NCBI GenBank assembly: GCA_903884185.1
Contig: CAISDV010000099.1
Coordinates: forward strand, 1 to 64,000
From: an uncultured Chitinophagaceae bacterium
Lineage (GTDB): Bacteria > Bacteroidota > Bacteroidia > Chitinophagales > Chitinophagaceae
DNA: 64,000 bases
Reading direction: 5' to 3'
The translations under genes were made by a program, and so were the position numbers. Under the pieces are notes generated by a model. That model was not told the DNA's origin. It ran no database searches and saw nothing but the letters and a program-made list of their open reading frames with translations. The stretch's first letter is position 1. The number at the start of each line of letters is the position of its first letter. Below are positions 49,715 to 53,536 of the stretch, one piece after another.

Positions 49715-50160
49715 TTCAGTGCTGTAAAGGGTTTTACTCGCTGGAATACAGTTTTAGCGTAATAAATCCGTAGTTAATTTGTTTTGAACAAGATTGAAAC
49801 ACGCCCTACATTCGTTTAGCAGGGTTGAGAATTCATACAGCAGGCAATCGTTAGAGAGAAATGGCAATTGTTAGAGGCCGAAATTCGAAAATCCTGAATC
49901 CGCCAAAGCAGACACTAGTACTAAGAATTTTCATATGGCAAGCAATCGTTAGAGGCCAGTCCGTTTCCACGGAAGGGCCCTTTTTTTGCAATCCGGTAAC
50001 GAATTTAACGGATATTCTCATTTTAACGAATTTTTTTCCCCGCTATTGCTTCCCGCCAGAAATTAACCCCAGAATACCCCGTATTAGAAATCGATTAGAT
50101 TTTGTCTATTTCCGCCGAATACTATAATGATGGCTGGCGATAACTCCTAATTTAGCCCGG
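49715..50160. other. 446-bp intergenic region with short direct repeats
   Basis: No convincing gene. It holds three copies of GCAATYGTTAGAG (near 49845, 49864 and 49942), the last two followed by GGCC, and near 50083-50100 two 11-bp-spaced copies of ATTAGA, the reverse complement of the motif repeated before the 74-residue and universal stress genes. It separates two divergent genes and should hold both promoters. Confidence 0.55.
50083..50100 (-). promoter_or_regulatory. Candidate autoregulatory operator of the response regulator
   Basis: ATTAGAA (50083) and ATTAGAT (50094) are 11 bp apart and are the reverse complements of the TTCTAAT-like motif found before the downstream genes. About 60 bp upstream of the response regulator ATG. 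Only two copies in AT-rich DNA, so the call is tentative. Confidence 0.3.
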
Positions 50161-50853
50161 ATGGACGAGCGAAAAATTTTAATAGTAGAAGACGAGGTCA
50201 AAATCGCTAAAGCGCTTCAGCTGGGGTTGAGCGAAAGTGGCTATTTAGTTGAATTAGCTTTTGATGGTATCATCGGAAAAAAATTATTTCTTTCACACAG
50301 CTACGACCTCGTTATACTCGATATCAATCTTCCTGGAATAAATGGATATGAGCTATGCACCGAGATCAGGAAGCGCGACCAGCACGTTCCCGTGATCATG
50401 CTTACTGCCATGAACACAACCGAAGACAAGATCGAAGGGTTCGATGCCGGTGCAGATGATTATATGATCAAGCCTTTTGAATTCAAAGAATTGCTGGTTC
50501 GCATTCGCGCGCTCTTAAAAAGAACACTTAACCAGCAATTGCCAACTGGAAATATTCTGCGAGTATCCGATCTTGAAATGAATCTAGACAGCAAAGAGGT
50601 AAAACGCGGCGATAAAAAAATACTCCTTACGGCAAAGGAGTTTCAGCTGTTAGAGTACTTTATGCGTAACAGGAACCGCGTAGTGTCTAGGGCTGATATT
50701 GCCGAATCGGTTTGGGGAATTGATTTTGATACACAAACCAATGTAATAGATGTTTATGTAAATTACCTTAGGAATAAAGTGGACAAGGGTTTTAGCGGAC
50801 GATTGATCCACACACAGGTGGGAATGGGTTACATGTTAAAAGAAGAAAGATGA
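50161..50853 (+). CDS. OmpR/PhoB-family response regulator
   Basis: 230 residues. Receiver domain with acidic pair in VEDE (residues 9-11), phosphoacceptor D54 in LVILDINLPG, and K in DDYMIKPFEF. C-terminal winged-helix DNA-binding domain: LTAKEFQLLEYFMRNRNRVVSR, DVYVNYLRNKVDKGF. Its TGA overlaps the kinase ATG by four bases. As a PhoB-type regulator it should bind direct repeats about 11 bp apart, which are present downstream. Confidence 0.93.
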   Translation: MDERKILIVEDEVKIAKALQLGLSESGYLVELAFDGIIGKKLFLSHSYDLVILDINLPGINGYELCTEIRKRDQHVPVIMLTAMNTTEDKIEGFDAGADDYMIKPFEFKELLVRIRALLKRTLNQQLPTGNILRVSDLEMNLDSKEVKRGDKKILLTAKEFQLLEYFMRNRNRVVSRADIAESVWGIDFDTQTNVIDVYVNYLRNKVDKGFSGRLIHTQVGMGYMLKEER

Positions 50854-52232
50854 AGATCAAATACCGGATCACCATCATATTTACGCTGATCGTATCAAGC
50901 ATACTTTTCCTTCTATGCTTTTCTGTTTACTATTTCTTTGACCTCAAGAGGGAGTCTGAATTCAAAAAAAGGCTCAAGAACCGAACACGGTTTACTATCA
51001 ATCTTTTGAAAAAAGTAGAGGGCATCAATAAAGACTTGCTTGGTAAGATCGATGCCTCCACTTATACGCTTGAATCAAAAAGTATTATTGTTTATGATCA
51101 GAACGACAAAGAAGAATATAGTTATACGGAAGAGGGTGCTATGCGTATTGAGGCAAATAAGACGATTTTAGAGAAGGCAAAGAAAAACGGAGATTATTAT
51201 TTTATTAAAGATGATCACGAGGCCGTAGCGGTGGCCTACACCGACAACCAAAATACCTTTGTAGTGGTTACCGCCGCTTACGACAAAGATGGATTTCAAA
51301 AATTGTCAATGCTGGCGCTTATCCTTTCTCTCAGCTGGGTAACGGGGGTTCTAATTACTTTTTTATCCGGCTTATTGTTTTCAATGCGGCTGGTTCTGCC
51401 AATCAGAAATATTATTAACGAGGTAAAGAAGATCTCCTCACAAAATCTTTCACGAAGGATAGATACTTATAAATCAAAAGATGAACTCGGAGAGCTGGCC
51501 TCTACTTTTAATGAATTGCTTACACGGCTACAGGAGTCGTTCGATATACAGGGAAGATTTATAGCCAATGCTTCTCATGAGCTTTCAACTCCACTTGCTT
51601 CCATTTCCAGTCAATTGGAGATCGCTTTGCAAAATGAACGCAGTACTGATGAATACAAGACCCTTATTTATTCTGTTTATGAAGATGTCCGCACGCTCAC
51701 TCAATTAACCAGGAGCTTGTTAGAGATCGCAAAGGCAAGTGGCACTACCGATGGAATTGAACTATCGCTTGTGAGGGTAGATGAATTACTTATGAAAATT
51801 CCCGCCGAGCTAAAAAAATCTGATGCCAGGTATAATGCGGAACTCCATTTCGATAGTTTCCCCGATGATGAAGACCGCTTGCTTGTATTCGGTAATGCCG
51901 ATCTATTATACAGTGCTATTAAAAATATTGTTATTAATGCCTGCAAATATTCCGAGGATCACCAGGCAAATGTTTCTCTGCATTTTTTAGAAGCTTCGGT
52001 TCAGATCAGGGTAGCAGACAATGGCCCCGGTATAAAAAAAGAAGAGTTGGAGCTTGTATTCCAGCCATTTTACAGAAGTAAGGATAATATTACTACACAG
52101 GGTTTTGGGTTGGGCCTTTCTTTAGCATCAACCATCATTAAACTTCATAAAGGAACCATCAAGCCTGTTGCCGGAAAGGGAACAGTTTTTGTTATTGAAT
52201 TTCCCATCGCACGCTTTTTTCACGTGCTGTAA
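50850..52232 (+). CDS. Sensor histidine kinase
   Basis: 460 residues. Two membrane helices (about 8-30 and 151-175) border a periplasmic sensor of about 120 residues. A HAMP linker is followed by the H-box with H243 (NASHELSTPLASI), N-box (NIVINACKYSED), and glycine-rich DNGPGIKKEE and GFGLGLSLA. Phosphorylates the overlapping response regulator. Sensed signal unknown; the sensor has no family I recognise. Confidence 0.93.
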   Translation: MKIKYRITIIFTLIVSSILFLLCFSVYYFFDLKRESEFKKRLKNRTRFTINLLKKVEGINKDLLGKIDASTYTLESKSIIVYDQNDKEEYSYTEEGAMRIEANKTILEKAKKNGDYYFIKDDHEAVAVAYTDNQNTFVVVTAAYDKDGFQKLSMLALILSLSWVTGVLITFLSGLLFSMRLVLPIRNIINEVKKISSQNLSRRIDTYKSKDELGELASTFNELLTRLQESFDIQGRFIANASHELSTPLASISSQLEIALQNERSTDEYKTLIYSVYEDVRTLTQLTRSLLEIAKASGTTDGIELSLVRVDELLMKIPAELKKSDARYNAELHFDSFPDDEDRLLVFGNADLLYSAIKNIVINACKYSEDHQANVSLHFLEASVQIRVADNGPGIKKEELELVFQPFYRSKDNITTQGFGLGLSLASTIIKLHKGTIKPVAGKGTVFVIEFPIARFFHVL

Positions 52233-52235
52233 TTT

Positions 52236-52279
52236 TTCTAATAATATTCTAATCTTACACTAACTCTCTTTTAATTCTG
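52236..52279 (+). promoter_or_regulatory. Four 11-bp-phased repeats before the 74-residue gene
   Basis: TTCTAAT (52236), TTCTAAT (52247), CACTAAC (52258) and TTTTAAT (52269) recur with an exact period of 11 bp, TAA being invariant. The same arrangement precedes the universal stress gene. It starts four bases after the kinase stop. Likely operator for the adjacent PhoB-type regulator. Confidence 0.6.
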
Positions 52280-52347
52280 CGGGTGGAATATTGCATTGCT
52301 GTTGCGATTACCATTAGCCTGGTAGTCATAAAAAATTCACAAAGAAC

Positions 52348-52572
52348 ATGGCCGCTTTTATCTTTTTTTTGATCAATTGTTTTTTGCCCCTATTCCTTTT
52401 TCTGCGTAAATGGGAGCCGGATGATTTTGTATCAAGGTCAGTTGCGTCTTCCTATAAAGCTGTTAAAAGATTTAGCCACCGGTTAAATCCCCGCGAAGGG
52501 AGAATAGTAGAAATGGACATTAACCCAAGGGCTTTCTTTACATCGCGGCGACAAAGGCCATGGAAAAAATAG
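52348..52572 (+). CDS. Small protein with N-terminal membrane helix
   Basis: 74 residues: a membrane helix or leader (FIFFLINCFLPLFLFL) followed by a basic soluble tail (SVASSYKAVKRFSHRL, TSRRQRPWKK). No family recognised. It has its own 11-bp-phased repeat array upstream and a strong terminator downstream, which support a real transcription unit controlled with the stress gene. Confidence 0.55.
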   Translation: MAAFIFFLINCFLPLFLFLRKWEPDDFVSRSVASSYKAVKRFSHRLNPREGRIVEMDINPRAFFTSRRQRPWKK

Positions 52573-52612
52573 TATTATATCCTCATGATAACCTCAGCAG
52601 GTTTGGTTTATC

Positions 52613-52640
52613 GCCACTCTTTTTTAAGAGTGGCCTTTTT
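52613..52640 (+). terminator. Terminator after the 74-residue gene
   Basis: GCCACTCTT and AAGAGTGGC form a perfect 9-bp stem followed by CTTTTT, 40 bp after the stop codon. Confidence 0.85.
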
Positions 52641-52651
52641 ATGCCAGCAAT

Positions 52652-52702
52652 TTCTAACCTGTTTTTAATGTTAGTTTAATTGATCGTTAATCACACGGTA
52701 AT
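52652..52702 (+). promoter_or_regulatory. Five 11-bp-phased repeats before the universal stress gene
   Basis: TTCTAAC (52652), TTTTAAT (52663), GTTTAAT (52674), CGTTAAT (52685) and CGGTAAT (52696), each exactly 11 bp from the last and all with TAA at positions 4-6. One helical turn apart on one DNA face, as in Pho-box type sites for OmpR/PhoB regulators. Confidence 0.65.
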
Positions 52703-52709
52703 AGGTTTG
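52680..52709 (+). promoter_or_regulatory. Bacteroidota-type promoter of the universal stress gene
   Basis: TTG at 52680-52682 and TAGGTTTG at 52702-52709 fit the -33/-7 consensus (TTTG and TAnnTTTG) with a 19-bp spacer. Transcription would begin at about the ATG (52715), implying a leaderless or nearly leaderless mRNA. Confidence 0.5.
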
Positions 52710-52714
52710 CTGGA

Positions 52715-53536
52715 ATGATCTTATTTAAAAACATCCTTATCCCGATAGATGGTTCTGATGATGCGGAAGTTGCTGTAAAAAAGGCTGTGGAACTATACGA
52801 ACCTTTTAAAACCCGGGTGCATCTTGTTTATATAATAAAAAGCCGGGTGCGTTTTTCCTTGTTTCAATCTTCCAGTGATCAATTACACAGAAAAGCAGAG
52901 ATTCTGCTTGGTGCTCTTCGTAAACTGATTTCGGAGAATGATGGTTGTGGTGTGACGAGCAGTGTAATGGAAGAAAGTAATCCTACTTATTCCCTCGGCT
53001 CGCATATTCTTAAACACGAAATTGACCTGATGATTATTTGCAGGAAAAAAAGAGTTGGATTTTTTTCATTCCAGGTAGACGAAGAGCGGATCGCAAAAAG
53101 AACCGGGTGCCCTGCGCTTACCATTACACCAGGATCCCTGCAACATCCTGTCAGGTCTATTCTGTTGCCTGTTGATTCTTTACTTCCTCAAAGAAAAATA
53201 CAACTGGCCCTTGCTTTTGCAAAAAAATATAATGCGAAAATCCATCTTGTAATAGCAATGAATCCGGGGAGTGCTAATGGCAGGGAATATATAGATGCTT
53301 TTTATATTGCCTATAAGATGCTGAAGGAATGTGGGCATACCCCACAATACAAGGTTTTACCGGGTATGGATTCTTTGCCTTCTTTACTGCATTATGCCGA
53401 AGATGTAAATGCGGGGATGATACTTTTGCAACCTGAAAAGAGGTCTTCGATCACTAGCCTGATTCACAAAAAGGTGAGTGGGCTTATATCCCCTTTATCT
53501 GCTCTGCAGGTATTAACCTTGCAACCGTACATATGA
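52715..53536 (+). CDS. Universal stress protein (two UspA domains)
   Basis: 273 residues: first UspA domain from ILIPIDGSDDAEVAVKKAV, second from SILLPVDSLLPQRKIQLAL. The typical ATP-binding loop G-x2-G-x9-G-S/T is not clear in either half, so nucleotide binding is doubtful. These proteins are induced by stress and starvation. Downstream of five phased repeats, so likely controlled by the neighbouring two-component system. Confidence 0.82.
   Translation: MILFKNILIPIDGSDDAEVAVKKAVELYEPFKTRVHLVYIIKSRVRFSLFQSSSDQLHRKAEILLGALRKLISENDGCGVTSSVMEESNPTYSLGSHILKHEIDLMIICRKKRVGFFSFQVDEERIAKRTGCPALTITPGSLQHPVRSILLPVDSLLPQRKIQLALAFAKKYNAKIHLVIAMNPGSANGREYIDAFYIAYKMLKECGHTPQYKVLPGMDSLPSLLHYAEDVNAGMILLQPEKRSSITSLIHKKVSGLISPLSALQVLTLQPYI

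Follow-up and report, generated by a model that had tools for sequence, protein, structure and literature searches.

Response regulators of the OmpR/PhoB family provide well-studied examples of proteins that read direct repeats spaced near one helical turn. In Mycobacterium tuberculosis, PhoP recognizes 7-bp motifs separated by a 4-bp spacer, which results in an 11-bp period, and three or four such repeats are bound more tightly than two (PMC4832192). Likewise, PmrA recognizes CTTAAT and CCTAAG half-sites with 5 bp between them (PMC3973317). Bacteroidetes promoters, for their part, carry a -7 box with the consensus TAnnTTTG (PMC7366714).

We analyzed a 64,000-nt stretch of DNA from an uncultured Chitinophagaceae bacterium, hereafter called the window, in which an initial annotation had pointed out TAA motifs in exact 11-bp steps ahead of two neighboring genes. 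All nine units were found as described. Those of array 1 begin at positions 52236, 52247, 52258, and 52269 (TTCTAATAATA, TTCTAATCTTA, CACTAACTCTC, and TTTTAATTCTG), those of array 2 begin at positions 52652, 52663, 52674, 52685, and 52696 (TTCTAACCTGT, TTTTAATGTTA, GTTTAATTGAT, CGTTAATCACA, and CGGTAATAGGT), and the step is exactly 11 bp throughout both. Pfam domains also agree with the annotated placement of both genes downstream from a PhoB/OmpR-type regulator and kinase (Table 1). Both regulator domains score above their cut-offs (Response_reg, 2.7e-29; Trans_reg_C, 2.5e-26), the receiver residues are conserved across an alignment of 10 orthologues, and the regulator and kinase genes share a 4-bp overlap. 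A literature search yielded no paper on TTCTAAT arrays or on this regulator.

Table 1. Coordinates of features in the window and of counterparts in related genomes
Feature	Position	Strand	Remarks
Two TCTAAT half-sites, 11 bp apart (TCTAATcgattTCTAAT)	50083..50099	-	Upstream of the regulator gene, pointing away from it
OmpR/PhoB-type response regulator (receiver and winged-helix DNA-binding domains)	50161..50853	+	Pfam; presumed array binder
Partner sensor histidine kinase (HAMP, HisKA, HATPase_c)	50850..52232	+	Pfam
Array 1, four 11-bp half-sites	52236..52279	+	Starts 4 bases past the kinase stop codon
Weak -7 element (GAATATTG)	52286..52293	+	In register after array 1; 4/6 matches to TAnnTTTG
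74-aa ORF, hydrophobic N-terminus	52348..52572	+	Intermediate codon score
Terminator-linked conserved RNA element	52578..52642	+	Covariance model R1; candidate small RNA or 3' end
Intrinsic terminator hairpin (terminator-like)	52613..52634	+	Separates two transcription units
Array 2, four 11-bp half-sites	52652..52695	+	
Reported fifth copy (CGGTAATAGGT)	52696..52706	+	Overlaps -7 box; probably no regulator site
-7 box (TAGGTTTG)	52702..52709	+	Perfect match, 10 bp past the fourth TAAY core
Universal stress protein, 273 aa	52715..53536	+	Pfam Usp, 7.2e-13
RNA element in relatives	L109:8198-8260; L111:8162-8224; L247:7737-7799; L252:6984-7046		
RNA element in relative L251	3525-3587	-	
QNDS-type small proteins	L094:6767-7024; L096:6206-6415; L256, L261, L265, L276, L297, L299, L300		

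The window arrays are real and are not a product of chance. No other run of at least three TAAY copies was found in the window at periods of 7-15 on either strand. When 200 dinucleotide-Markov copies of the window were searched, a mean of 0.195 runs of at least three was encountered, and none of four. In the entire 2.95-Mb genome, four TAAY copies at 11-bp spacing are present only in the two window arrays and at one additional site (C122:40910). The initial annotation would have been refuted by an equal abundance of such arrays in the rest of the genome, and this outcome was not observed. This additional array, which is L106:4907-4950 on the minus strand, consists of four GGTAAC units beside DUF47 and PHO4 phosphate-transporter genes, and it looks like a Pho box. 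A genome-wide regulon search with a relaxed pattern that tolerates three mismatches gave 21 matches, compared with 28 in the control, and ranked the two window arrays first (0 and 2 mismatches). Two mismatches were otherwise seen only at the Pho-like array and at a site on C90 close to a different regulator gene.

Since the units are rich in A and T and recur about once per helical turn, they might have arisen by chance or from a feature that AT-rich intergenic DNA has in general, such as A-tract phasing or curvature, with no regulator involved. This explanation is exceedingly improbable. Simulated DNA modelled on the two intergenic stretches yields 5e-5 four-copy arrays per 257 bp, the unit is a sequence consensus rather than a series of A-tracts, and the occurrence of the arrays tracks one regulator clade.

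This last observation comes from several comparisons of related loci. The seven closest orthologues of the regulator in other genera (63-75% identical) all have an array of 3-4 copies nearby, and most of the less similar regulators in that first comparison have none. A set of 11 loci whose regulators are 66-84% identical, drawn from named or metagenomic genomes including Hydrotalea, Sediminibacterium, and Ferruginibacter, has 29 period-11 arrays, and no other period is represented by more than two. A larger set of 60 loci was picked by regulator similarity alone and shares some genomes with the set of 11; it carries 64 arrays at period 11 versus eight at all other periods (7-15) combined. Arrays are located near 44 of these 60 orthologue loci, and at the other 16 no array of at least three strict copies is nearby. 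Among more distant regulators (44-55% identical), many of which reside in the same genomes, the corresponding figure is only 1 of 26 loci, a difference with a Fisher p of ~1e-9 for counts that are not independent because the genomes are related by descent. Larkinella relatives (59-60% identical) have kept arrays whose half-sites are TTTAAC. Overall, a close orthologue of the regulator is present in 113 of 396 genomes of the bacterial family.

Of the 64 arrays at the 60 loci, 34 are located downstream from the kinase on the same strand, as is array 1, and 18 are divergent and upstream of the regulator. The half-site pair that precedes the regulator gene in the window has the position and orientation of this second group, and is possibly an autoregulation site or the remnant of a divergent array.

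The arrays of relatives conform to a common layout, TTCTAAT-N4-TTCTAAT-N6-YTAAT-N6-YTAAY, followed by 10 bp and then by the Bacteroidota -7 box TAnnTTTG. Across 52 arrays, the consensus reads TTCTAATnnna TTCTAATnnnn nnYTAATnnnn nnYTAAynnnn N6 TAnnTTTg. Units 3 and 4 are variable, and units 1 and 2 are TCTAAT or TTTAAT almost without exception. In a first set of 53 arrays, the box lies exactly 10 bp past the last TAAY core in 26 and at 21 bp in another 10, whose last unit is degenerate, and each remaining offset from 0 to 69 accounts for 0-3 arrays. The second set gave a similar distribution, with the box at 10 bp in 26/64 arrays, at 21 bp in 6/64, and at any other distance in no more than four. 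Head-to-tail half-sites about one helical turn apart are thus found near promoters, as four units at 11 bp, across genera. Judged from this sequence context, the arrays are predicted promoter elements.

This geometry also clarifies how many sites each window array contains. The TAnnTTTG box, which serves the primary sigma factor of Bacteroidota (sigma-ABfr), is matched at 6/6 positions after array 2 and at 4/6 after array 1. Because the unit at 52696 overlaps TAGGTTTG, and because its spacing from unit 4 is that of the promoter in related loci, it is best read as part of the promoter, and the five-site reading of array 2 was rejected. With its box in register after unit 4, array 2 joins array 1 as a four-site array, and four is the standard number. 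Hence, the initial annotation was right to count four copies before the 74-residue ORF, but its five before the stress gene become four plus a -7 box. Its view that the copy number is unusually high does not hold, since this regulator normally has four sites and the family commonly carries Pho-like arrays of at least four units.

Taken together, the co-occurrence of arrays and orthologues across genera and the rigid distance to the promoter support a link between the two. The suggestion in the initial annotation that the arrays are putative sites of the adjacent OmpR/PhoB-type regulator is therefore well supported by comparative sequence data. It is nonetheless conceivable that the arrays serve as Pho boxes or are bound by another OmpR/PhoB-family regulator, given that the genome contains some 20 additional regulator matches. 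Pho-like arrays that share both the 11-bp period and the 10-bp distance to the -7 box (the latter in 8/23) occur in the family, and this genome has one at C122. We consider this very unlikely because the half-sites differ, being TCTAAT or TTTAAT here versus TAACATT or GGTAAC in the Pho-like class, and because the TCTAAT class accompanies orthologues of this regulator but is not associated with the paralogues that these genomes also encode.

The arrays are very probably operator-promoters of the adjacent two-component system, at which tandem binding to four sites would recruit polymerase. Upon phosphorylation by the kinase, four regulator subunits would align head to tail on one face of the DNA, each occupying an 11-bp half-site. 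Such tandem 11-bp half-sites are documented for this regulator family, which counts in favor of the proposed binding. The strongest half-sites would be the TTCTAAT sequences of units 1 and 2, followed by the degenerate YTAAT sequences of units 3 and 4, and binding is likely to be cooperative. The last subunit, positioned 10 bp upstream of the -7 box, would then recruit RNA polymerase carrying the primary Bacteroidota sigma factor. The weak -7 box of array 1 counts against this proposal, as do the 16 orthologue loci that lack a nearby array and the shared ancestry of the genomes compared.

The position of the sites alone suggests activation rather than repression. Within the OmpR family, some regulators can act both as repressors and as activators, and because the putative sites abut the promoter and start codon, subunits bound beside the -7 box could instead block RNA polymerase until a signal arrives. 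This arrangement is unlikely, since the last half-site stops short of the -7 box, at a constant 10 bp and with no overlap, and a distance that remains rigid over genera is what would be expected for contact with polymerase.

If the arrays act as activating operator-promoters, the output of the locus in the window would be two separately controlled transcripts, one being a short post-kinase RNA and the other encoding the universal stress protein. The start codon of the stress gene lies only 5 nt past the -7 box (window 52709-52717), and so its mRNA is predicted to be leaderless or nearly so. Start codons of array-driven genes in relatives are often 5-30 nt from the box. Of 49 proteins encoded directly after array promoters, 19 are universal stress proteins, which form the most frequent kind and occur at this place in many genera. 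Others include TPR and OmpA proteins, trehalose-phosphate synthase/phosphatase, and glycerol-3-phosphate dehydrogenase, as well as a glycosyltransferase-HAD fusion for which NCBIfam gives glucosyl-3-phosphoglycerate synthase as the best match, below its cut-off. Single cases were observed of a ribosome-hibernation factor, an MscS channel, a ClC channel, and an iron-sulfur repair protein. The genes located behind the arrays are therefore those for stress, solute, and envelope functions rather than the phosphate genes that would mark a PhoB regulon. Trehalose and glucosylglycerate are compatible solutes. For this reason, our best guess for the signal is osmotic or drying stress; envelope stress is likewise among the likeliest, judging in each case from target genes only.

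The short post-kinase transcript could correspond to the 74-aa ORF, to the terminator-linked RNA, or to both. The ORF may or may not be a gene, and a search for homologues of its product found none that were convincing. In several relatives, the post-kinase array is immediately followed by genes for small proteins (70-90 aa) that combine a hydrophobic N-terminus with a conserved segment containing QNDS. Despite this shared position, no convincing alignment links them to the 74-aa protein, and they were set aside as its relatives.

Covariance model R1 of the RNA element, built from 11 sequences including the window's own, scored 62.1 bits for the window element versus 30.9 for the next place in the genome. 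The hairpin of the element exhibits covariation, with changes on both sides in 7/12 pairs, and the single-stranded stretch before the hairpin is almost invariant inside each of two subtypes. In six relatives (L109, L110, L111, L247, L251, and L252), no conserved gene is located between the first array and the RNA element; the conserved single-stranded stretch (for example, TTATTTGCTCAGGGTTTAGTTTAA) is simply followed by the covarying terminator hairpin. In L107, L108, and L248-L250, the element comes after an OmpA-type gene. Transcription from the first array in the six relatives thus appears to yield a short non-coding RNA. A tiny ORF ending in LLFAQGLV* runs through the conserved stretch in some relatives, and was not called a gene because its third codon positions do not vary and the frame upstream is different in L111.

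It is possible, if somewhat doubtful, that array 1 controls a small regulatory RNA instead of, or besides, a protein. If true, a stress-protein promoter and an sRNA promoter would be paired under one four-site switch. Similar terminator-linked motifs recur elsewhere in the genomes of relatives, and so the element may represent a class of terminators. An Rfam search returned tRNA only, and a DNA-similarity search for the element found mostly ordinary terminators. Other pre-terminator motifs, of the CATATGGCAAGCAATCGTTA and CATAAGCAGTTGGTTTTGGTTAA types, are recurrent in the family (L214, L320; L315, L324, L325, L328, L329), and one is present in the window at ~49930-49975, upstream of the regulator.

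The four-site array is a newly defined, predicted operator-promoter of a familiar kind, found in dozens of related bacteria. An uncharacterized but widespread Bacteroidota two-component system thereby gains a precise predicted binding code and a list of targets. Moreover, four 11-bp sites, 10 bp, and TAnnTTTG constitute a rigid and probable activator-promoter geometry for the unusual sigma factor of this phylum. That the Pho-like arrays of the family have this geometry in common points to a general rule by which OmpR-family regulons could be located, which would be useful in a phylum whose promoters are hard to predict.

With the regulator itself, none of the curated models for CusR-type, PmrA, PhoB, or RprY proteins reaches its cut-off, and the regulator was therefore filed under none of these groups. 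It reaches 180.7 bits with the Bacteroides PhoB model NF053854 (cut-off 270), 184.3 with the PhoB model TIGR02154 (cut-off 296.2), and 145.3 bits with NF051850 (cut-off 370), the model for RprY, the stress regulator studied in Bacteroidota. The closest NCBIfam subfamily by sequence is the CusR/CzcR type for both proteins, with 245.7 bits against a cut-off of 279.2 for the regulator (TIGR01387) and 179.1 against 292.55 for the kinase (TIGR01386). Systems of that type differ in that they serve metal export, whereas stress and solute genes follow the arrays described here. The PmrA/BasR box (CTTAAT-N5-CCTAAG) resembles the window arrays in its xTTAAT-type half-site and 11-bp step, but it has two half-sites rather than four, and the window regulator falls far below the cut-off of the PmrA model (NF007928; 171.9 bits versus 330). 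The DNA-binding domain of M. tuberculosis PhoP, also of the OmpR/PhoB family, is among the closest solved ones to that of the window regulator, although the two systems differ in half-site sequence, targets, phylum, and sigma factor. Most similar in layout are the TAACATT arrays of the same bacterial family, presumably bound by PhoB, which likewise comprise four or more 11-bp units placed 10 bp from the -7 box, but which differ in their half-site and in this genome adjoin phosphate genes.
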